Origin: Fibrobacter sp. UWH6
Lineage (GTDB): Bacteria > Fibrobacterota > Fibrobacteria > Fibrobacterales > Fibrobacteraceae
Length of the DNA stretch: 64,000 bases
Direction: 5' to 3'
NCBI RefSeq assembly: GCF_900142465.1
Contig: NZ_FRAX01000003.1
Coordinates: forward strand, 248,001-312,000
The position numbers and the translations under genes were made by a program. Each line of letters opens with the position of its first letter. The first letter of the stretch is position 1. Shown here in pieces: positions 51,824-62,609 of the stretch. Under the pieces are notes generated by a model, which saw nothing but the letters and a program-made list of their open reading frames with translations, searched no databases and had not been told where the DNA came from.

Positions 51824-53125
51824 ATGAAATTGAATAATCTGAGCAATCCCTCCCGTGTCATCCTGAGCAACCTCGCCCGCGTCATTCTGAGCAAAGCGAA
51901 GAATCCAGTCCTTGCCGCCTCCCTCGTCGCATTTGCAGCCTGTTCCGACTACCTGGAAGACTTCCAGGACAAGTATGACGACGGCAATGCCTTCGCCGAA
52001 ATAACCAGCGACAGCGACAATGGTGACGACGACGGCAGCAGCGACAGCAAACTCAGTTCTTCCAACGGTGGCGACAGCGACGTCGAATCTTCCGACAGCA
52101 CGGACAGTTCCAGTTCCGCTGCCGACCCAGGCAGTTCTTCTTCTGTTGCAGAATCCAGCAGCAGTGCTTTCAAGCCTTGCACCGGCACCGTGATTTATGA
52201 CGCGGAAGAAGATTCGGTGTATAATAGATTTGGTCGAAAATTTATTACGTTTGTCCAAGAGTATGGCTCAGATTGGAGCAAAACAAGTCCAGACGGAGTA
52301 ACAGCATATCTTCCTCAGGAGGGCTTATTAATAATGCCTTTGGTAGAATCCCCAGATACCATGAATATTGAACCTTGGGGTGGATTCTGTGTTGAATACA
52401 CTGGTTCAGGAGTTCTACATGCTAACGTCGTCGATGGGAGTAGCGCTAATAAACCTATTTTGCTTTACAAAGAGATGCCTAATACAAATGGCGAAAAAAG
52501 TTCATTCACATGGTCATGGAATGAAAATGTAGGTTTGATGGAGAAACAAGAAGACAATGGCAGCTCAGAAGGATTTTCAATAGAAAAGGTAGAATCAATC
52601 AATTTTATCAGCTATTTGGGTAATAGTTCTATAACCATTCATAAAATCACAACATTGAAGCCCAATGTTTCTATTGACGAATACTTAAAATGCGACGGCT
52701 CGACTATTACACCACAACATATCGAATACTGGTCGTCCTTAGGTTCTTTTCAGGAAAGAACATATCTAAAACCCGGTAGTGAATACAATATTACTTTATT
52801 AGGAAACAACACTGTTCTTGTGAATCATCCAGACGATCAGGTAAGGTTGGCCCAAGCCAAAGGTTTCTGTATAGAATATTCTTCAGACAAAAATTTCTTG
52901 TTATCATTTCACCGCTACGAGACGAACGGCACACTTACAAATGATAGTGCAAATGTCTCCATTTACAAAGGGGAGAAAAAGATTTCTTACATACTATGGC
53001 AGGATTTAGAAAGAAGATTTGGTAGTTTTTCTTCAACTAATATACATTTACTAACATTCAGTGCTAAACAAACCGAAAACGACACAACAAATATATTAAT
53101 CAGTCGAATGACTCTAATCAATTAA
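51824..53125 (+). CDS. Mosaic lipoprotein with two related GFCxEY domains
   Basis: 433 residues. The N-terminus starts with two copies of a short repeat-derived peptide (RVILSNLARVILSKAKNP), then a lipobox near VAFAAC. A Ser/Asp-rich linker (about 45-115) follows. The C-terminal two thirds contain two related beta-sandwich units, marked by GGFCVEYTGSGVLHANV and KGFCIEYSSDKNFLLSF. From about base 52195 the DNA becomes clearly more AT-rich with different codon choice (more TTA, AAT and ATA), while the first part matches neighbouring genes. This suggests a transferred or replaced C-terminal module. It is cotranscribed with the gene at 50429. Function is unknown; sugar binding is possible. Confidence 0.75.
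   Translation: MKLNNLSNPSRVILSNLARVILSKAKNPVLAASLVAFAACSDYLEDFQDKYDDGNAFAEITSDSDNGDDDGSSDSKLSSSNGGDSDVESSDSTDSSSSAADPGSSSSVAESSSSAFKPCTGTVIYDAEEDSVYNRFGRKFITFVQEYGSDWSKTSPDGVTAYLPQEGLLIMPLVESPDTMNIEPWGGFCVEYTGSGVLHANVVDGSSANKPILLYKEMPNTNGEKSSFTWSWNENVGLMEKQEDNGSSEGFSIEKVESINFISYLGNSSITIHKITTLKPNVSIDEYLKCDGSTITPQHIEYWSSLGSFQERTYLKPGSEYNITLLGNNTVLVNHPDDQVRLAQAKGFCIEYSSDKNFLLSFHRYETNGTLTNDSANVSIYKGEKKISYILWQDLERRFGSFSSTNIHLLTFSAKQTENDTTNILISRMTLIN
51852..51909 (+). repeat. Two short-repeat copies in the lipoprotein signal region
   Basis: CGTGTCATCCTGAGCAA and CGCGTCATTCTGAGCAAA lie in tandem, the second continuing GCGAAGAATCCAG. They code RVILSNLA and RVILSKAKNP before the hydrophobic core of the signal peptide. 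Confidence 0.85.
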
Positions 53126-53190: not shown

Positions 53191-53276
53191 CGATTCACAC
53201 TCATTTCCATCTTCGAGCGTTAATTCCAGTACCGATCAGCATTAAGAAAATGATGGGAATGTATTTACAAAACAGT

Positions 53277-53290
53277 TAGCTTTAACTAAC
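53277..53290. promoter_or_regulatory. TTAG-N6-CTAA box upstream of HD-GYP gene
   Basis: TTAGCTTTAACTAA, arms extended by G and C to GTTAG and CTAAC. It ends 25 bases before the start at 53316 and just before the ribosome binding site GGAAGGAGGG. It has the same arms and spacing as the boxes at 57387, 58815 and 62562-62609. Confidence 0.6.
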
Positions 53291-53315: not shown

Positions 53316-53921
53316 ATGTCAGCCTTATCTCAATACCATGACTTAATCTTGTGCGTCGTTTCCGCCCTGGAAGCAAGAGATTCCTACACCAGTTTCCATT
53401 CCTCCCGCGTAGCGGAAATGGTGGAAGCCCTTTGCAGGTTTTTAGGCATCACCGGCGATCAGGAAGAACTATTCCATATTTCGGCACACTTGCATGACGT
53501 TGGGAAAATTGGCATACGCGACGACGTTCTTTTAAAAGCAGGACGATTGAATGATGAAGAATGGGAAATCATGAAATCCCATTCTTTGCAAGGTTACGAA
53601 ATTTTACGGAAGGCAAAGCTATTTGAGAACGTAGCTATCATTGTACGCGGACACCACGAACGCTGGGACGGTAAAGGTTATCCCGATGGACTGTCCGGCG
53701 CAAACATTCCCCTGGGTTCAAGAATTATCGCAATCGCCGATTCCATCGACGCCATGATTTCGGACCGTCCCTACAGAAAGGGCATGGATGTGTCCATCTG
53801 CAGAAGCGAAATAGAAAAGAACGCCGGAATCATGTACGATCCCGACGTGGTTAAAGTCGCTTTGGAAAATTGGGATGATTTAATTAAATCGGGCACTGCC
53901 GTCTGCGCCATGCAGAGTTAA
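53316..53921 (+). CDS. HD-GYP domain phosphodiesterase
   Basis: 201 residues. The HD motif is HLHDVGKIGI and the GYP motif is HHERWDGKGYPDGLSG. Supporting residues include DSIDAMISDRPYRKG. The domain occupies the whole protein; no receiver or sensor domain is attached. HD-GYP proteins hydrolyse cyclic di-GMP. Its strong ribosome binding site (GGAAGGAGGG) follows a TTAG-N6-CTAA box. The stop overlaps the stop of the convergent ATPase gene (53918-53921). Confidence 0.9.
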   Translation: MSALSQYHDLILCVVSALEARDSYTSFHSSRVAEMVEALCRFLGITGDQEELFHISAHLHDVGKIGIRDDVLLKAGRLNDEEWEIMKSHSLQGYEILRKAKLFENVAIIVRGHHERWDGKGYPDGLSGANIPLGSRIIAIADSIDAMISDRPYRKGMDVSICRSEIEKNAGIMYDPDVVKVALENWDDLIKSGTAVCAMQS

Positions 53922-56020
53922 GTTCCAATTTTAGTCATACTTTTGGCACAAATAGCCATGGTAGAAGCATTGTGCAAAAATGCCGACGTGGTGGGAGAAA
54001 GGAATCCGAAGAATCCACCCGCAAGCAAACCCGTATTAAAGGCGACGATGAACTTATAGTTGGATTGGATTCGATCCATCAGCTTTTGGCTCAGAACGCG
54101 AAGCTCAGCCAAGTCTTCCAGATTTTCCCCTCGGAGAGTAACGTCCGCAGTTTCCCGGGCAAAGTCGGAAGCATCGCTCATGGCAACAGAAACGTTTGCC
54201 GCAGCCAAAGCGGGAGCATCGTTAATGCCATCCCCCACCATAATGACGCGTTTGCCTTCTGCTTTCATCCGTTCCACGTAATTGTGTTTGTCTTCGGGCA
54301 AAACTTGTGCGTAGAACGTGTCTATTCCCAGGATTTCAGCGGTACGTTCCGCAGCCTTCTGGCTGTCGCCGGTGATCATGACCACATTCTTGATGCCCGT
54401 TTCTCGCAGGCGTTTGATAGCGACGGCAGCCTCTTCTCGCGGAGGGTCGCTAATGCACAAGACACCAGCCAACTTGCCGCCAATACCCAAGTAGATGACG
54501 GATGCGGCACCGCCCACTTCTTCGATGGTCGCCTGCTGTTGTTCCGTCACGAGAACCTTTTCGTCTTCAATAACAAAATGCCTGCTACCGATGACAGCCC
54601 TCTCACCTCTAAGGGTTGTGGCAATACCATGAGCCACAATGTACTTTACATCCGCATGCTCTTCGGCATGATCGATGCCACGTTCCGCGGCACCATTTAC
54701 AATAGCGCGGGCCATGCTGTGAGGGAAATGTTCCTCGATGCAGGCAGCTATCTTTAAAATTTCTTCTTCGGAACGACCACCAAAGGCAATAATCTTCTGA
54801 AGCTTCGGTTCTGCCTTGGTCAAAGTTCCCGTCTTATCGAAAACGACAGTATCAGCCAAGGCAAATTCCTCAAGATACTTGCCACCCTTTACCGTCATAT
54901 TTCTATCGGCGGCCTCACGCAAGGCTGAAATTACGGAGATAGGCGTAGAAAGTTTAATGGCGCAGGAATAATCCACCATCAAGATGGAAACGGCCTTGGT
55001 AATGTTCCGGGTAAACAGAAGAGTCAAGCCAAATCCCAGGAAACTGAAGGGGACGATGCTGTCAGCCAAATGCTCTGCGCGGCTCTGAATGCCAGCCTTC
55101 AAATCTTCGCTATGGTCAATGAGCTCGATGATTTTCTGAATCTTGGTGTTGTCATTCACCGCACGGACTTCCACGACGATGGAACCTTCGTCTAGGAGGG
55201 TGCCCGCAAATACTGTCTTTCCCGCATTCTTCAACACAGCCTTTGATTCGCCCGTCATGGTGGATTCGTTCACTAAAGCTTCGCCTTCTACAACTGTTCC
55301 ATCCACAGGAATCATGGCACCATCGCGGATTCTCACCAAGTCACCCGGCACCACGTCCTTCAAGTCAACTAAGGTGTCCACGCCATTTTTAACCACCCAG
55401 ACTTTGTCCACTTTTACAGCAAGGCTGCCCGTAAGCGCTGTGCGGGTGCGAGCCTTGGTGTAATCTTCCAATAAGCCAGAAACCCCTAGCAGGAACATAA
55501 CCGTACCTGCGGACTCATAATTTTTCTGGAGCATGGAGGCTCCAATGGCGGCACCATCCAGAACTTCGACGGTCAACTTACCTTCTGCAAGAGTGAATAA
55601 TCCCTTAGCCACATATTTGAGGCCGCGGAAAACCGTTATGGCCGTTCGAATCGGCAAAGGAACAAACCAGCGCATCAGATAGCGGCGAGCTATCATTTTG
55701 CACAGGCTGTTCTGGAAATTGTCATCCAGGGATTGCAACTGGTAATCCGTATCCGGATCCACTTCGGGCAATTCCCTCGGTTTTAAGGCAGTTACAAAAT
55801 CCAGAATCATCTGGCGATTTTCAGCAGTTATTTCTGCAGATTCATCGCTGCCATAGTTCAGCAAAAGGCTTCCATTGGCACTATGGATTACCGCAGACTT
55901 TACGCAAGGAATCCCCACGCAAGCCTTATGGATACGGCCTTCAAACTTAGGTTCAAAGGCGTAAGGACCACAGCGAAAACGGATACGCCCCGGCCGATCG
56001 TATGCGATTCTGAATTTCAT
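53918..56020 (-). CDS. P1B-type metal ATPase lacking the CPC motif
   Basis: 700 residues from the ATG at 56020, preceded by AGGTAAG. The N-terminus is HMA-like in outline but lacks CxxC. P-type motifs are present: TGES, DKTGTLT with D395, and GDGINDAPALAAANVSVAM. In the metal-site helix the usual CPC is replaced by YSCAIKLSTP (Y351, S352, C353, K356). P1B ATPases with SPC or other variants often export Mn, Fe, Co or Zn; the YSC variant and Lys suggest a distinct selectivity, but the metal cannot be named. It follows DUF6110 by 35 bp and is predicted to be coexpressed. Its stop overlaps the stop of the HD-GYP gene. Confidence 0.9.
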   Translation of the reverse strand: MKFRIAYDRPGRIRFRCGPYAFEPKFEGRIHKACVGIPCVKSAVIHSANGSLLLNYGSDESAEITAENRQMILDFVTALKPRELPEVDPDTDYQLQSLDDNFQNSLCKMIARRYLMRWFVPLPIRTAITVFRGLKYVAKGLFTLAEGKLTVEVLDGAAIGASMLQKNYESAGTVMFLLGVSGLLEDYTKARTRTALTGSLAVKVDKVWVVKNGVDTLVDLKDVVPGDLVRIRDGAMIPVDGTVVEGEALVNESTMTGESKAVLKNAGKTVFAGTLLDEGSIVVEVRAVNDNTKIQKIIELIDHSEDLKAGIQSRAEHLADSIVPFSFLGFGLTLLFTRNITKAVSILMVDYSCAIKLSTPISVISALREAADRNMTVKGGKYLEEFALADTVVFDKTGTLTKAEPKLQKIIAFGGRSEEEILKIAACIEEHFPHSMARAIVNGAAERGIDHAEEHADVKYIVAHGIATTLRGERAVIGSRHFVIEDEKVLVTEQQQATIEEVGGAASVIYLGIGGKLAGVLCISDPPREEAAVAIKRLRETGIKNVVMITGDSQKAAERTAEILGIDTFYAQVLPEDKHNYVERMKAEGKRVIMVGDGINDAPALAAANVSVAMSDASDFARETADVTLRGENLEDLAELRVLSQKLMDRIQSNYKFIVAFNTGLLAGGFFGFLSPTTSAFLHNASTMAICAKSMTKIGT

Positions 56021-56055
56021 AAACTTACCTACACAAGATGACTTGACAAGAAAAA

Positions 56056-56283
56056 TTACTTGTCCAAGCCTGCTTCGGACTTGGCGTCGTTGCAAATGTC
56101 GTTAGCTTCGTCTTTCATATCCTGGAAGGCAGCCTTGGCATCGGCAGAGAACTTCATGCCGTGAGCAAGGCCAGTTACAGCAAGTTCACGAGTTTTCTTT
56201 GCCTTGAGCACTTTCTTGGTAATAGCGGAGCCAACAGCACCAGCAACCACCAACCAGAACTTTTCATTTTTGAAGATAGACAT
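56056..56283 (-). CDS. DUF6110-like small protein
   Basis: 75 residues. It starts MSIFKNEKFWLVVAGAVGSAITKKVLKAKKTREL, with a hydrophobic, glycine-containing N-terminal half, then a basic KAKK patch and an acidic helical C-terminus. This matches small proteins often found next to P-type ATPases (DUF6110). Its role is not established; a membrane-associated partner of the ATPase is plausible. It lies 35 bp upstream of the ATPase and follows three 18-bp tandem repeats. Confidence 0.75.
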   Translation of the reverse strand: MSIFKNEKFWLVVAGAVGSAITKKVLKAKKTRELAVTGLAHGMKFSADAKAAFQDMKDEANDICNDAKSEAGLDK

Positions 56284-56311
56284 AGGTTACTCCTTGTTAA
56301 TTTTTAACTAA

Positions 56312-56365
56312 GTTAGACACTCTAATTTTGTTAGCCAATTTAACTTTGTTAGACCAGCTAACTTT
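56312..56365. promoter_or_regulatory. Three 18-bp tandem repeats upstream of DUF6110-ATPase
   Basis: Three successive units each begin GTTAG: GTTAGACACTCTAATTTT (56312-56329), GTTAGCCAATTTAACTTT (56330-56347) and GTTAGACCAGCTAACTTT (56348-56365). Each contains TTAG-N5-[CT]TAA. They fill the gap between flavodoxin and DUF6110 and are a likely regulator-binding array related to, but one base shorter in spacing than, the TTAG-N6-CTAA boxes. Confidence 0.75.
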
Positions 56366-56369
56366 TATT

Positions 56370-56798
56370 TTAAGCCAAAGCTAAAGCCTTGCCCTGTTCC
56401 TGACACTTAGCCTTTGCGTCGTCATCGGGAGCATTTTCAACAGCCAAGGGTTCATCCACAAGGTTCAAGCCCGCGGCAACTGCATCCTCTTTCCAGGGAG
56501 TCATATATTCGCCGCCGCCCCAGCCGTATGAACCGAAAAGAGCCACCTTCTTGCCAGCAAGAGCAGGTTTCATCTTTTCATAAAGAGGCTGAAATTCGCT
56601 GTCTTCCAATTCTTCGGCACCCATGGCAGGGCAACCTAGAGCAAACTTTTCAAACACCGCTGCAGAATCTGCAGAAAACTCGGTGGTATGAAAAATTGAA
56701 ACGTCTCCGCCGACAGCTTGTGCGCCAGCAGCAATTTCCTTCGCCATCATTTCGGTATTTCCGGTTCCGGACCAATAAATAACTGCAATTTTACTCAT
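56370..56798 (-). CDS. Flavodoxin
   Basis: 142 residues. FMN phosphate-loop YWSGTGNTEMMA at the start, then the isoalloxazine-loop region ALGCPAMGAEELED, and FGSYGWGGGEYMTPW. Short-chain flavodoxin size. It replaces ferredoxin under iron limitation in many bacteria. It lies 25 bp downstream of the DUF3793 gene and likely shares its TTAG-N6-CTAA-controlled promoter. Confidence 0.92.
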   Translation of the reverse strand: MSKIAVIYWSGTGNTEMMAKEIAAGAQAVGGDVSIFHTTEFSADSAAVFEKFALGCPAMGAEELEDSEFQPLYEKMKPALAGKKVALFGSYGWGGGEYMTPWKEDAVAAGLNLVDEPLAVENAPDDDAKAKCQEQGKALALA

Positions 56799-56823
56799 TT
56801 TATTTTTCCTTTTTTTTAGTAAA

Positions 56824-57384
56824 TCAACTTGCGACAGTCAAGCGTTCCAAGGAAGCACCCTGTTCAAATCGAGTCCAAAGAATCTCCTTGCATTTTTTAA
56901 AGACCTCAAAAATATGCATGGAATTTTGAACGTCGTTATAAACCTTCCAACAGCCTATTTGCTTGTAATTTCTGCCTCCGTTGGCGATAAAATCCCGCAC
57001 ATCATCCAAGGGATATCCCAGAAAAACCCCTACTTCATGGGGAAAACAAACAGATTTCATCATGCGCTTTCGAAACGATTTTAGCAAGGAATCCACATCG
57101 AATTTCGCATACCCGAATCTTTTCAGGAAATTCTGGATTTCACAAGAACAGGTAAGAGATCTAAGCGCACAATCCCTATAGACATAGATGTAATAACAGC
57201 CTCTTTTCTCTGCAACAACCTTGACAAAAACGCCTTTAGGATTCAAAACCTTATTCCAGCGGGAAAGAAGATTGCATAACAGAAGGCCGTCGGCAATTTC
57301 AAGGCAGAATAAATTCCCCACCTTTACGCCAGCTAGTGTAGGCGCACATTGCCGAACGAGACATGAATCAAACATTCTAGCCAT
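56824..57384 (-). CDS. DUF3793 family protein
   Basis: 186 residues. It has the DUF3793 signatures CAPTLAGVKVGNLF near the start and FPHEVGVFLGYPLDDVRDFI and GCWKVYNDV near the end, with many cysteines. The family is often found beside flavodoxin and Feo genes; its biochemical function is unknown. The operator box at 57387-57400 ends 2 bases before the ATG at 57384, leaving no room for a ribosome binding site. Start at the second ATG (57375) is possible, or the mRNA is leaderless. Confidence 0.85.
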   Translation of the reverse strand: MARMFDSCLVRQCAPTLAGVKVGNLFCLEIADGLLLCNLLSRWNKVLNPKGVFVKVVAEKRGCYYIYVYRDCALRSLTCSCEIQNFLKRFGYAKFDVDSLLKSFRKRMMKSVCFPHEVGVFLGYPLDDVRDFIANGGRNYKQIGCWKVYNDVQNSMHIFEVFKKCKEILWTRFEQGASLERLTVAS

Positions 57385-57386
57385 AA

Positions 57387-57400
57387 TTAGATTAGTCTAA
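57387..57400. promoter_or_regulatory. TTAG-N6-CTAA box upstream of DUF3793
   Basis: TTAGATTAGTCTAA. With flanks it matches the box upstream of the porin gene at 16 of 17 positions (ATTAGAYTAGTCTAACT). It directly precedes the start codon, so binding would block transcription start. Confidence 0.7.
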
Positions 57401-57511: not shown

Positions 57512-58651
57512 TTAAAAGGCGAAGACGGTTTCCACACCAAGCTGCAAGCTAATGTCGTCATTGTCGCCGTAGTCATCACCCAGGGGCTTATTCAGCATAC
57601 CGAAGCCGGTAATTTCAAGACCTTCTACAGGGGCAAAGTAAAGACGGAGGCCTGCAGCAAAGGAACCCAAATCCTCATCGCTATCCAAGGTGTTGCTGTG
57701 GTATTCCAGCGGGATTCCCAAGGTAAGAGCGCCCACCAAATTCAGGCTGGGTTCCACATAGGCAAAGAAGTATTCCGGGATTTCTTCACCGTGATCGATG
57801 GGAGCATCTTCGTCAAAGAGAGCGTAGAATGCGGTTGCCTTGATGTTAAAGCCACCCACTTCAAAAGAGGGTTCCACCAGGAAGGCATGAGTTGCACCCG
57901 GTTCATCTTCACCAAGGGCATCCACATGGAGACCATACACGGCGTGGAATCCGAAGCCGCCAAATTTCAGGTTGGCATCCACACCAGCGTGGAGTTCATT
58001 GTGTTTCGGTTCCTGATAGGACTTGTAATCCACATAGGGGCGCAAAGTGTGTTCACCTAAGCCCAATTCATAAGCCAAGTGAGCGTCATAGGCGACGCCT
58101 ACGCACGTTTCCTCACCATCTTCTTCAGCGCAAACTTGATTATCGTTGTCACCGCGACCAAAGCCGAGGCCAAAAACAAAACCATTAAAGTCAACTTCAA
58201 CTCCTCGAATATCGTGTTCAGCCATACCAGCGGCATTGTCGGCAGGATCGTCGTAGCCGTAGTAGTTCAGGAAAGCTCCCTCAGAAAAAGTCAAGTCACC
58301 GGCCTTGACCACAAAATTTTCGCTCTTGGTGTACTGAACGAATGCGCCATTGTAAATAGCGGCAGGATCAGTAGATTCGCCATCCGCTTCTAACTGCACC
58401 TCTGCAGACCACTGGTCATTAAACTTCACACCCACATTAAAATCAAAAGTAGAGGCATAGTTATGGGACTTTGGACCATCGCTAAAAAGATCGCCGGTGT
58501 AGGCATCGAATTCCACTTCACCAGAGAAAGAGACTTCAGGGCCCTTAGATCCCTCGACTTCGCTCGGGATGACAGTCGATCGCTCTTCGGCGTGGGCGGA
58601 AACTGCGGCGAGGGAAACAGCCATAAGGCCAAATGCTAAACGAGATTTCAT
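57512..58651 (-). CDS. Outer-membrane porin-like beta-barrel
   Basis: 379 residues. A signal peptide (MKSRLAFGLMAVSLAAVSAHA) is followed at once by the repeat-derived VIPSEVEGS, then by regular amphipathic strands rich in acidic loops (DNDNQVCAEEDGEE, DEDAPIDHGEEIPE). The last residue is Phe (VETVFAF), typical for outer-membrane barrels. The acidic loops could favour cations. Translation is set by AAGGAG before the ATG. A near-consensus sigma54 promoter (58705-58720) and a TTAG-N6-CTAA palindrome (58815-58828) lie upstream, unlike the other genes. An uptake channel for metal or small solutes is inferred. Confidence 0.8.
   Translation of the reverse strand: MKSRLAFGLMAVSLAAVSAHAEERSTVIPSEVEGSKGPEVSFSGEVEFDAYTGDLFSDGPKSHNYASTFDFNVGVKFNDQWSAEVQLEADGESTDPAAIYNGAFVQYTKSENFVVKAGDLTFSEGAFLNYYGYDDPADNAAGMAEHDIRGVEVDFNGFVFGLGFGRGDNDNQVCAEEDGEETCVGVAYDAHLAYELGLGEHTLRPYVDYKSYQEPKHNELHAGVDANLKFGGFGFHAVYGLHVDALGEDEPGATHAFLVEPSFEVGGFNIKATAFYALFDEDAPIDHGEEIPEYFFAYVEPSLNLVGALTLGIPLEYHSNTLDSDEDLGSFAAGLRLYFAPVEGLEITGFGMLNKPLGDDYGDNDDISLQLGVETVFAF
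58548..58573 (-). repeat. Short dispersed repeat at the start of the mature porin
   Basis: On the coding strand GTCATCCCGAGCGAAGTC continues with GAGGGATC and codes VIPSEVEGS directly after the signal-peptide region. Confidence 0.8.
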
Positions 58652-58814: not shown

Positions 58815-58828
58815 TTAGACTAGTCTAA
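58815..58828. promoter_or_regulatory. Perfect TTAG-N6-CTAA palindrome upstream of the porin
   Basis: TTAGACTAGTCTAA is fully palindromic. It lies about 127 bp upstream of the expected sigma54 start, where enhancer sites for sigma54 activators usually lie, yet its sequence matches the boxes at DUF3793 and dtxR. Confidence 0.7.
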
Positions 58829-58922: not shown

Positions 58923-61793
58923 CTAGTCTTCAAAACGCTTCTGCTTGTTTGCCTTGATACCGAAGAGCTTCAGGAAGATTCCAGTACCGATCAGAACAAT
59001 GACTGCGGTAACGATCCAGTGGGTTTGTCCGCCAACAGGTATCTGGTAGAGCAGCACTGCAATGGCCCAGGCAAGAAGCGTTTGAACCGTAGCCATAAGG
59101 ATTCCAAGACCCAGACCGATTTCACGAACCACAACGCCCATGGCAGCAAGGCAAGGTACATAGAGCAGGATAAATACCAGGAAGGCAAACACCTGCCAGT
59201 TGAATCCATCGTGACCACCGTTGTGGAAGTAGGAGCGGAGGTTTGCATAGATGTCGGCGGTTTCGCTCAGGTCGCCTTCTTCAAGAGCCCCCATGGCATC
59301 TTCATCCAATTCGATACCGGCAGCGGCAAGCTTTGCAAATACAGCTTCGCGAGTCTTTTCGTCCTCCTCTTCTTCGCCAAAGGTTTCAATGGCAGCAAAT
59401 TCTTCGCAAGTGAGAGACTTAGATTCAAGAATCTTGTCCAAAGTTTCCTTCTTAAGTTCAGCAGCAGCCTGGCCTTCCAATTCCCCAGAGGTACCCAAGA
59501 TGTCGGTAAGAGATCCAACCACTTCGCTGAGGTTTGCAGGGATAGAAGAAACTGCTTCAATGAATGCAGCCTTGAGATCAGGAGCACCATCTTCCTCTTC
59601 TTCGGCGGGGCATTCATCGACACCGGCGATAAGAGGCTTTTCTTCTTCGGCGGGAGCTTCTGCAATCGCAGCGACTTCGGCGGGAGCTTCTGCAACTGCG
59701 GCGGTTTCGGCAGGTTCCGCACTGGATTCTTCGCTTGCGCTCAGAATGACGCTAGGAGAGTCGCTCGGAATGACAGCGGAGGATTCGCTCGGAATGACAC
59801 GGGATGCGGTTTCGCCTTCGCTCAGAATGACGTTGGAGTCAGCAGAAGCAGCAGTGCTGTCGGTAACAGCCACACTTTCTCCTTCTGGTGCCGGGGCGGT
59901 TTCAACAGCCGGGGCTTCCTCAGCGACAATTTCTGCGGCTTCAGAAGGTGCAGCGGGTTCAGCCTGAGGGCCTTCCACCGCTTCACTCTTCGGGGCCATG
60001 GCGTAGAGGGAGTTCATGGTACCGATAACGGCTTCCTTAGCCAACAATCCGGTAAAGAGGGAAACGGATGCGGGCCAGTTGTCTTCTTCAACGCCAAAGG
60101 GTTCAAATACAGGCGTAATGGTCTTACCCACAGAAGAAAGCAAACTGTTTTCGGAATCTGCGTTACCGGCGGTAAACTTGCCATCCACATAGCCAAAGGC
60201 ATTGAGGAAGCCAAGAACGGCCACAGCGATAGTAATCACCTTACCGGCGCGAAGCACGTAGTCCTTCAGCTTGAGCCAGGAATGAATCAGCAAGGACTTG
60301 ATCTTCGGCAAATGATAGTTAGGAAGTTCCATCACGAAATTGCTGGACTGACCCATGAACAAGGATTTCTTCAGGAACAGACCGTAAATGATGGCGAACA
60401 CAATACCCACCAGGTAAAGCAGGAACACGATGGTTCCAGCCTGCTTTCCGAAGAAGGCTGCAGCGAACAGAGCGTACACCGGCAAGCGGGCGCCACAGCT
60501 CATGAAAGGCACAAGGAATATGGTGAGGAAGCGCTCACGCTTACTTTCAAGAACGCGGGAACCCATAATGCCGGGAACGCCACAGCCAAAGCCCACCATC
60601 ATAGGGACAAATGCACGACCGGGGAGCCCAAGGAATCGCATAAAGCGATCCGCCACGAAGGCGGCACGAGCCATGTAGCCAGAGTCTTCCAGGAAGGTCA
60701 GGCACAGGAACATGAAGAAGATTACCGGAATGAAGGTAGACACGGTCTGGATACCGGCGCCAACACCATTGGCAAGAACTGCAGAAACCCAGGCGGGCGC
60801 ACCAATCACATCGCTAAGCAAATAGCCCAGGCCATCCACAAAAATGGCACCGAAAGAAATATCAAAGAAATCAATAAAGGCGCTACCGATGGTCACGGCC
60901 ACCCAGAACACCAGGTACATCACCAAAAGGAAGATGGGAAGAGAAAGCCAACGATTCAAAAGGATTGCATCCAACTTATCAGAATGCGTTTTCTTGGCGC
61001 GATCACCAACGATTACCGTACCGGCGATTTCGTGGGCCATGCTGTAGCGGGCATCGGCCATGACGAATTCAGATTCTTCGCCAAGCTTTGCAGTAACTTC
61101 ATCCCTGTTCAAGGCAACACCGGCAGCAGCAAACTTGTCTGCATAGCTGTTACTGTTACCCAGGTACATCAAGGAAACCCAACGGGGTTCTGCGTCTAGC
61201 AACTTTGCCACAGGAGCGACCAGAGATTCCAATTCCTTCACCACATTCTCCACCTTGTCACCATAGGTGAGACCGGCAGGGATGGCAATAGGGCTAGAGA
61301 TAACATGGGCCATCTGGCTAATGAAATTGGTAATGCTCTTTTCGTTCACCGCAGAAAGAGGAATGGCGGGAACCCCGAAACGCTTGGAGAGTGCTTCAAG
61401 ATCAATATGGAGACCGCGCTGTTCAGCGATATCCATCATGTTCACGGCGATGACCATAGGCTGCTGCATATCCACCAGCTGGGTGGTCAGGAACATGTTA
61501 CGTTCAATGTTCGTGGCATCGACGATGTTTACAATCAAATCGGCTTCGCGAGTGAGGAGGAAATCGACAGCGGCGCGTTCGTCCTCGGAGTTTGCGAAAA
61601 TGGCGTAAGTACCCGGAAGGTCCACCACACGGATGTGGCGAGCGCCCAGGTCGAAGAAGCCTTCCTTCTTTTCTACAGTGACGCCAGGCCAGTTGCCTAC
61701 GCTTTGGCGCGAGCCAGTCAAGGCATTAAATAAAGCAGTCTTACCGCAGTTCGGGTTACCTGCAATAGCGATTGTAAACGGTTTTGGTGACAT
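58923..61793 (-). CDS. feoB: FeoB, ferrous iron transporter with a large acidic insertion
   Basis: 956 residues; E. coli FeoB has 773. The G domain has G1 GNPNCGKT (12-19), G3 DLPGTY and G4 NMMD. The membrane part has the two gate motifs (SCGARLPVYALF and GLLAKEAVIGTMNSLYAM). After M599 there is an extra stretch (about 600-860), rich in Ala/Glu/Pro/Ser, that contains four short-repeat-derived peptides (VILSEG, RVIPSE, VIPSDS, VILSASEES). A charged helical part then leads to the last membrane helices. FeoB imports Fe2+ driven by its GTPase. It follows feoA by 37 bp in an operon with dtxR. The insertion should lie in a loop between membrane helices. Confidence 0.95.
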   Translation of the reverse strand: MSPKPFTIAIAGNPNCGKTALFNALTGSRQSVGNWPGVTVEKKEGFFDLGARHIRVVDLPGTYAIFANSEDERAAVDFLLTREADLIVNIVDATNIERNMFLTTQLVDMQQPMVIAVNMMDIAEQRGLHIDLEALSKRFGVPAIPLSAVNEKSITNFISQMAHVISSPIAIPAGLTYGDKVENVVKELESLVAPVAKLLDAEPRWVSLMYLGNSNSYADKFAAAGVALNRDEVTAKLGEESEFVMADARYSMAHEIAGTVIVGDRAKKTHSDKLDAILLNRWLSLPIFLLVMYLVFWVAVTIGSAFIDFFDISFGAIFVDGLGYLLSDVIGAPAWVSAVLANGVGAGIQTVSTFIPVIFFMFLCLTFLEDSGYMARAAFVADRFMRFLGLPGRAFVPMMVGFGCGVPGIMGSRVLESKRERFLTIFLVPFMSCGARLPVYALFAAAFFGKQAGTIVFLLYLVGIVFAIIYGLFLKKSLFMGQSSNFVMELPNYHLPKIKSLLIHSWLKLKDYVLRAGKVITIAVAVLGFLNAFGYVDGKFTAGNADSENSLLSSVGKTITPVFEPFGVEEDNWPASVSLFTGLLAKEAVIGTMNSLYAMAPKSEAVEGPQAEPAAPSEAAEIVAEEAPAVETAPAPEGESVAVTDSTAASADSNVILSEGETASRVIPSESSAVIPSDSPSVILSASEESSAEPAETAAVAEAPAEVAAIAEAPAEEEKPLIAGVDECPAEEEEDGAPDLKAAFIEAVSSIPANLSEVVGSLTDILGTSGELEGQAAAELKKETLDKILESKSLTCEEFAAIETFGEEEEDEKTREAVFAKLAAAGIELDEDAMGALEEGDLSETADIYANLRSYFHNGGHDGFNWQVFAFLVFILLYVPCLAAMGVVVREIGLGLGILMATVQTLLAWAIAVLLYQIPVGGQTHWIVTAVIVLIGTGIFLKLFGIKANKQKRFED
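59722..59831 (-). repeat. Four short-repeat copies inside feoB
   Basis: TCGCTCRGAATGAC-type words (first copy GCGCTCAGAATGAC) end at 59750, 59774, 59798 and 59831. On the coding strand they read GTCATTCTGAGC or GTCATTCCGAGC. They match the repeats at 51852-51909 and 58548-58573. Confidence 0.85.
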
Positions 61794-61830: not shown

Positions 61831-62115
61831 TTAGATTCTCTTCAGGTTCAACACATTGCCTTCTTCCCTACGGAGGGAAAGGCGGTAGTTCAAGACACTC
61901 ACTTCAATGGGATCCCCCAGAGGAGCAATCTGCATCACTTCCAAAGTGACGCCGCGGACAAGGCCCATGGAAAGGAGCTTGGACTTATAACGGGCATCGC
62001 CTTCGTTGTAGCCAACAATTTCCACCTTGTCGCCTTTCTTAAGTTCAGAGAATTTCGGCTCGACGTTCCACTTCTTGGTTTTACCGTCGCAGCCACAGCC
62101 GCAATTACAGCTCAT
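61831..62115 (-). CDS. feoA: FeoA with a Cys-rich N-terminus
   Basis: 94 residues. The FeoA SH3-like fold spans about 20-94 (LKKGDKVEIVGYNEGD, LLSMGLVRGVTLEVMQIAPLGDPIEV, NYRLSLRREEGNVL). The first residues, MSCNCGCGCDG, hold four cysteines that could bind metal and are not part of a minimal FeoA. It overlaps the dtxR stop as ATGA, so translation is coupled. Confidence 0.93.
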   Translation of the reverse strand: MSCNCGCGCDGKTKKWNVEPKFSELKKGDKVEIVGYNEGDARYKSKLLSMGLVRGVTLEVMQIAPLGDPIEVSVLNYRLSLRREEGNVLNLKRI

Positions 62116-62546
62116 TTTTTGTTACCCTTTGCAACCTTCAACTTCTTTACAGTTGTGATTACAGTTTCCGAAGGCTTCATGAAGTCTTCAATTTTAGACA
62201 GAGTCTCTGCCGACAGGATATGTTCCATACAGCAAGCGTCCTTATCAGCAATAGCTTCAGAGACACCGAGACGAATTAAAAAACCTTTCAAAAGAATGTG
62301 ACGATTCAGCACATCGGCAGCAGCCTTGCGACCTGCATCCGTCAATTCAATACCGCTATAAGGTTCCTGGGTGACCAAGCCAAGCTTTTTCAATTCCAGG
62401 ATGGCCTTTGCCACAGAAGGCATTTTAACCTGCAGGGCAGCGGCGATGTCTTTTACGCGAGCGATGCCATGAGCCAGGCGCAGCATGTGCACCATTTCTA
62501 GATAATCCTCTAGGCTCTGGCTGAGCTTTACGTGTTCGTTTTCCAT
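62112..62546 (-). CDS. DtxR/MntR-family metal-dependent regulator
   Basis: 144 residues, the short form without an SH3-like domain, as in MntR. The winged HTH is at about 5-70 (IARVKDIAAALQVKMPSVAKAILELKKLGLV). The metal-binding dimerisation region has D14 in the LEDYLE helix (as in MntR), H83, and DKDACCMEH with C105, E108 and H109. Cys at 105 is DtxR/IdeR-like, where MntR has Glu, so the ligand set is mixed. It heads the operon dtxR-feoA-feoB. Three TTAG-N6-CTAA-type boxes lie directly upstream, so autoregulation and iron (or manganese) response are expected. The metal cannot be fixed from sequence. Confidence 0.92.
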   Translation of the reverse strand: MENEHVKLSQSLEDYLEMVHMLRLAHGIARVKDIAAALQVKMPSVAKAILELKKLGLVTQEPYSGIELTDAGRKAAADVLNRHILLKGFLIRLGVSEAIADKDACCMEHILSAETLSKIEDFMKPSETVITTVKKLKVAKGNKK

Positions 62547-62561
62547 TGTTACCTCTTTTTG

Positions 62562-62609
62562 TTAGCCAGAACTAAATTTAGTAAGCCTAGGCTAATTAGT
62601 CAAGGCTAA
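62562..62609. promoter_or_regulatory. Three adjacent TTAG-N6-CTAA boxes before dtxR-feoAB
   Basis: TTAGCCAGAACTAA (62562-62575), TAAGCCTAGGCTAA (62582-62595, one mismatch, inner 10 bp AGCCTAGGCT palindromic) and TTAGTCAAGGCTAA (62596-62609). They cover the region 16-63 bp upstream of the ATG at 62546, where the promoter must lie. Confidence 0.75.

Follow-up and report, generated by a model that had tools for sequence, protein, structure and literature searches.

Why should a P1B-type ATPase that does not have a CPC metal-site motif be encoded next to the ferrous iron uptake genes feoAB? The question is raised by a stretch of 64 kb (the window) from the 3.92 Mb, 50-contig genome of Fibrobacter sp. 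UWH6 (contig NZ_FRAX01000003.1, positions 248,001 to 312,000). On the minus strand the genes run dtxR, feoA, feoB, a porin-like gene, DUF3793, a short flavodoxin, a 75 amino acid membrane protein and the ATPase. An earlier proposal made from the DNA letters (the original prediction) had placed the last four at 53918-57384 as a cassette pairing import with export of the same metal. The four open reading frames (ORFs) and their coordinates were confirmed, except for the start of the ATPase. Ferrosomes, organelles in which bacteria store iron, are a recent discovery and have been shown in few species. The locus is probably an iron-starvation island, in which a ferrosome-type store encoded by fezAB is under the control of a DtxR-family regulator in common with feoAB.

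The ATPase gene (53918-56020, minus strand) was assigned as fezB-like from its ORF, homologues and motifs. The longest ORF starts at TTG 56095, whereas homologues favour ATG 56020 (MKFRIAYDRPGR..., 700 amino acids). The protein has a DKTGT phosphorylation site. Transmembrane helix 4 (TM4) reads DYSCAIKLSTP, with DYSCAIK at residues 350-356, and the last transmembrane helix reads LHNAST, in which H683-N684 is invariant across 39 aligned homologues. P1B6 ATPases are defined by an HN motif in the last metal-site helix (PMC9374683). With D-[YF]-S-C-A-[IL]-K in TM4 and L-H-N in the last helix, the protein is by its motifs a P1B6 ATPase and not an odd CPC pump. The motif predicted in place of CPC was read as YSCAIK, in the helix that papers on P1B ATPases call TM4 and not in TM6 as it had been named. 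A set of 105 relatives was drawn from Fibrobacter, Clostridia, Actinomycetota, Spirochaetota, Deinococcus, Azospirillum, Vibrio, Arcobacter and Priestia; 44 of them have DYSCAIK, 36 DFSCALK and 18 DYSCALK, and there are a few variants. The Lys (C-x-x-K) is retained in 103 of them, Glu occupying the position in the other two, and is therefore a hallmark of the P1B6 family, not the anomaly it had been taken for. DYSCAIK was identical in every Fibrobacter copy read, and a sequencing error as the source of the motif was rejected. In the AlphaFold model (predicted local distance difference test, pLDDT, 79), a ferredoxin-like N-terminal domain is seen and the TM4 helix is broken at V349-D350, just before S352-C353, which matches the expectation for a P-type ion site. 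A PDB sequence search with FezB returned CopA/ZntA-type and more distant P-type pumps, with no P1B6 structure evident among them. Two Lachnospiraceae FezB proteins (L113, L127) carry DFSCAIE, with Glu for the TM4 Lys, and the FezA of both is also divergent.

The small membrane protein (56056-56283, minus strand) is encoded 35 bp before fezB and is a relative of PacL and DUF6110. The DUF6110 label of the original prediction is right by relationship, since a Coprococcus orthologue at the equivalent position matches DUF6110 at 9e-39 and the Fibrobacter protein aligns with such orthologues. The protein itself falls below the Pfam DUF6110 cut-off, its sole Pfam match being a sub-threshold one to DUF1490/PacL (E=0.001). 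A fezA-family gene lies directly before fezB in 64 of the 67 non-Fibrobacter loci with an intact fezB 5' flank. The transmembrane segment holds a Lys and GxxG; such residues are needed by PacL proteins for membrane cluster assembly (PMC13043812). Judged from these relationships, the small protein is the matching PacL/DUF6110-like partner of the P1B6 ATPase. A plasmid search with it gave no match.

FezB was reportedly classed as a P1B6 ATPase by Grant and colleagues in 2022, and the DUF6110-P1B6 pair appears to match FezA-FezB, the proteins of intracellular ferrosomes. Clostridioides difficile cannot form ferrosomes without FezA and FezB, which are Fur-repressed (PMC12574912); the genes are CD630_05910-05920 (PMC11651100), and a published table of changes under iron limitation and in a fur mutant lists the fez operon, annotated as an ATPase and a hypothetical protein, with raised values (PMC6311696). 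The C. difficile and Fibrobacter sets share the pair of small membrane protein and P-type ATPase and, by prediction on the Fibrobacter side, an iron-type regulation, and the C. difficile descriptions consulted likewise do not mention FezC. They differ in that control is by Fur in C. difficile, whereas for the Fibrobacter set, whose organelle is putative, control of DtxR type is predicted, and this set is linked to feoAB and DUF3793-flavodoxin. The ferrosome clusters known from Desulfovibrio magneticus and Rhodopseudomonas palustris share with it a FezB-type ferrous iron ATPase, proposed to fill the organelle; D. magneticus has FezC, a DUF4405-like cytochrome, and R. palustris has six fez genes, whereas in Fibrobacter fezA and fezB stand together alone (PMC10979944, PMC12016538). 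Of 71 non-Fibrobacter fezB loci, 21 include Feo genes and 18 have a Fur-like regulator gene before fezA.

The connection with feoAB is seen in the spacers. Palindromes of the pattern TTAG-N(4-7)-CTAA occur seven times in the window against 2.4 expected, a count reached in none of 100 shuffles, and all seven lie between 53.2 and 62.7 kb in spacers that total 850 bp there. Two precede fezA (56313-56325 and 56349-56361), one precedes DUF3793 (TTAGACTAATCTAA, minus strand, 57387-57400), a perfect one precedes the porin-like gene (TTAGACTAGTCTAA, 58815-58828), two precede dtxR-feoAB (62562-62575 and 62596-62609) and one precedes an HD-domain gene (53276-53289). The pattern was chosen after viewing the fezA and DUF3793 spacers, so that the three sites there are not independent evidence, while the other four are. 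At 23 Fibrobacter loci, some closely related and the counts thus not independent, 88 palindromes were found against 13 expected; 86 of these are intergenic, upstream of the same set of genes, and tandem copies are frequent. No near-perfect palindrome was found elsewhere in the genome. These palindromes and their recurrence in relatives are described here for the first time. The DtxR-family metal-dependent regulator (62112-62546, minus strand) is the only PF02742 protein of the genome, which also has one Fur-family protein, and it heads feoA (61831-62115) and feoB (58923-61793), both on the minus strand. The simplest reading is that, through the palindromes, this local DtxR protein would place feoAB, the porin-like gene, the flavodoxin pair and fezAB under one control.

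The following mechanism is proposed. FeoAB would import ferrous iron, and FezB would spend ATP in moving it out of the cytosol and into a membrane compartment within the cell, building an iron store, with FezA as the PacL-like membrane scaffold that organises the compartment. The DtxR-family regulator heading feoAB would bind the palindromes before dtxR-feoAB, the porin-like gene, DUF3793-flavodoxin and fezAB and repress these genes, so that in iron shortage all of them would be expressed together and the return of iron would be met with import and storage. Flavodoxin would replace iron-containing ferredoxin during shortage, and DUF3793 would be its constant partner within the iron economy. 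The palindromes thus predict that the storage genes are switched on with uptake and not by iron excess.

The fezB gene is present in 19 of 37 Fibrobacter genomes. In other families of the phylum, P1B matches are only ~35% identical, and those inspected are of CPC type. In a quick tree made without bootstrap, 23 Fibrobacter FezB sequences form one clade (100) within a clade (100) that includes Ruminococcus bicirculans, R. bromii and kin. The single clade inside Ruminococcus FezB points to one transfer into Fibrobacter, with a rumen Ruminococcus-like donor. Two Fibrobacter assemblies (G001, contigs C45 and C62; G006, contigs C142 and C12; loci L040, L053, L038, L054) have two fezB copies each, one per Fibrobacter clade, either a real duplication or mixed assemblies. 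No strong ferritin was found in the genus: most genomes give matches at E ~1e-5, against 1e-19 to 1e-45 for the ferritins of several other families in the phylum. The weak matches were not accepted as storage ferritins; both of those inspected from FezB-positive genomes are rubrerythrins. One FezB-negative Fibrobacter genome of low completeness has a divergent ferritin-like protein. If fezAB does build a store in Fibrobacter, a main cellulose degrader of the rumen without strong ferritin, the range of ferrosomes would grow by another phylum and would take in a host that is not a pathogen.

Several points weigh against a ferrosome-type store under iron-responsive DtxR control. The likeness of FezA and FezB to ferrosome proteins comes from motifs, gene pairing and published descriptions of the C. 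difficile and D. magneticus systems. No FezC (DUF4405-like) gene is present in the Fibrobacter fez cluster. FezB-negative Fibrobacter are likewise without a strong ferritin match, which makes the lack of ferritin no more than mild support for storage. In alignment, the DtxR-family protein appears to share the C-x-x-E-H site of DtxR but to have Asp at the position of DtxR Met10, as in MntR; its metal may be Mn and not Fe. Members of the second Fibrobacter fezB clade mostly have no palindromes at fezA, and their fezAB tends to lie behind a large gene, which at the one locus scanned encodes a TonB receptor; the regulatory coupling is therefore limited to part of the genus. On another contig (G000:C9:22303-22476, L195), ~12.5 kb from a second P1B ATPase, a frame of 289 amino acids was seen whose DUF4405 domain is that of the FezC-like cytochromes.

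The remaining two genes of the set are those of the DUF3793 protein (56824-57384, minus strand, 186 amino acids; PF12672, 1.2e-53) and the short-chain flavodoxin (56370-56798, minus strand, 142 amino acids), 25 bp apart, the flavodoxin lying 86 bp from fezA. C. difficile FldX is likewise a flavodoxin raised in iron shortage and thought to replace ferredoxin (PMC6311696, PMC10913485); it differs in being transcribed alone, while the Fibrobacter flavodoxin is paired with DUF3793 and located before fezAB. A short flavodoxin adjoins or is near DUF3793 in 45 of 50 loci, and since the two are paired also in genomes without fezB they form a module of their own. The four-gene cassette of the original prediction is present as a whole here, but its two modules, DUF3793-flavodoxin and fezA-fezB, are apart in most genomes. 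Its expectation that DUF3793 co-occurs with the ATPase elsewhere was borne out in statistics that ignore phylogeny: 17 of 19 FezB-positive Fibrobacter genomes have DUF3793 against 2 of 18 negative ones (Fisher 1.7e-6), as do 13 of 14 FezB-positive Clostridia against 54 of 231 others (Fisher 2e-7). The Clostridia were an even draw of 245 genomes in which up to 4 FezB candidates were scored per genome, one more match (321 bits, 35% identity) being left out of the FezB count. In nearly all double-positive Fibrobacter, DUF3793 and fezB are on one contig within ~14 kb. DUF2325 (e.g. L165:3662-3964, L066:10291-10617, L035:3185-3517) precedes DUF3793-flavodoxin in ~12 of 50 loci and could also belong to the iron set. 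It was seen near fezB on an Arcobacter plasmid as well. The fold of the DUF3793 protein is predicted with high confidence (pLDDT 96, predicted template modelling score 0.90). Its invariant or near-invariant residues include F114-P115-H116-E117, D128 and W146-K147-V148-Y149. PDB profile search, Foldseek and viral models gave no relatives, and the best match (template modelling score ~0.30, E 0.01) was rejected as meaningless. A family present in about a quarter of the sampled Clostridia, nearly always beside flavodoxin, gains an iron-linked context and a confident predicted fold.

The DUF3793-flavodoxin pair could go further and be a functional part of the ferrosome, for instance in reducing stored iron for release, which would extend a fezAB store and is compatible with it. 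Besides the co-occurrence in Clostridia, 9 of 71 non-Fibrobacter loci have DUF3793 no more than 9 kb from fezB, where a rough estimate expects ~0.3, and R. bromii has fezA-fezB-DUF2325-DUF3793-flavodoxin in a row. The pair is however common in genomes without fezB and often distant from fez, the co-occurrence statistics take no account of phylogeny, and DUF3793 occurs without fezB in two Fibrobacter genomes and fezB without DUF3793 in two others; we consider such a part unlikely. The boldest proposal, also unlikely, is that DUF3793 with flavodoxin is an unrecognised redox part of ferrosome storage (e.g. reducing stored iron for exit) where FezC is not clustered, with DUF3793 as a new fold having a new role in the iron economy.

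One alternative, in line with the original prediction, is a plasma-membrane exporter of Fe(II) (or Mn(II)) that would guard against overload caused by Feo. Metal export is common among P1B ATPases, fezB is near feoAB, and iron detoxification has also been described for ferrosomes (PMC12748827). An overload exporter is expected under excess iron. Expression in shortage, which is predicted by the C. difficile data and by the control shared with uptake, is the wrong condition for an exporter and fits a store readied in scarcity. The P1B6-DUF6110 pair is moreover of the ferrosome type that is Fur-repressed in C. difficile. Expression together with iron uptake, predicted from the operators shared with feoAB, would suggest storage over export of excess. 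What stands of the paired import and export is a non-CPC metal ATPase tied to Feo, with iron as its probable substrate; export from the cell is improbable. It is very improbable that the pair is an efflux platform for zinc or cadmium on the model of mycobacterial PacL-Ctp, in which the small protein would act as chaperone: the gene order is equal, with a small transmembrane partner directly before an HN-motif P1B ATPase and DUF1490 related to DUF6110 (PMC9374683, PMC13043812), and the weak DUF1490/PacL match, the transmembrane Lys and GxxG agree with it, but Mycobacterium tuberculosis CtpC has CPC in TM4, PacL1 a C-terminal metal-binding tail and the system Zn or Cd as substrates (PMC9374683, PMC13043812), whereas the Fibrobacter ATPase has neither CPC (CtpC) nor APC (CtpG), the tail of its partner (NDICNDAKSEAGLDK) has no His/Asp cluster or PacL-type metal-binding tail, and iron genes are all around the locus.

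Other features of the window are as follows. No Rfam families were found in it, and promoter and terminator scans were set aside, their results being no better than shuffles. The porin-like outer-membrane protein (57512-58651, minus strand) has no Pfam match, its class being suggested by its sequence. The HD-domain (HD_5) gene (53316-53921, plus strand), with its own operator-like palindrome upstream, converges on fezB with a 4-bp overlap at its end, an arrangement repeated in G036 (L037). FeoB has a long acidic insert at about residues 640-700 with phrases such as VIPSESSAVIPSDSPSVILSASEESS, which resemble phrases close to the N-termini of two other products, the porin-like protein and that of a lipoprotein-like ORF (51824-53125). 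The insert and these N-terminal likenesses look like a dispersed repeat translated in frame.

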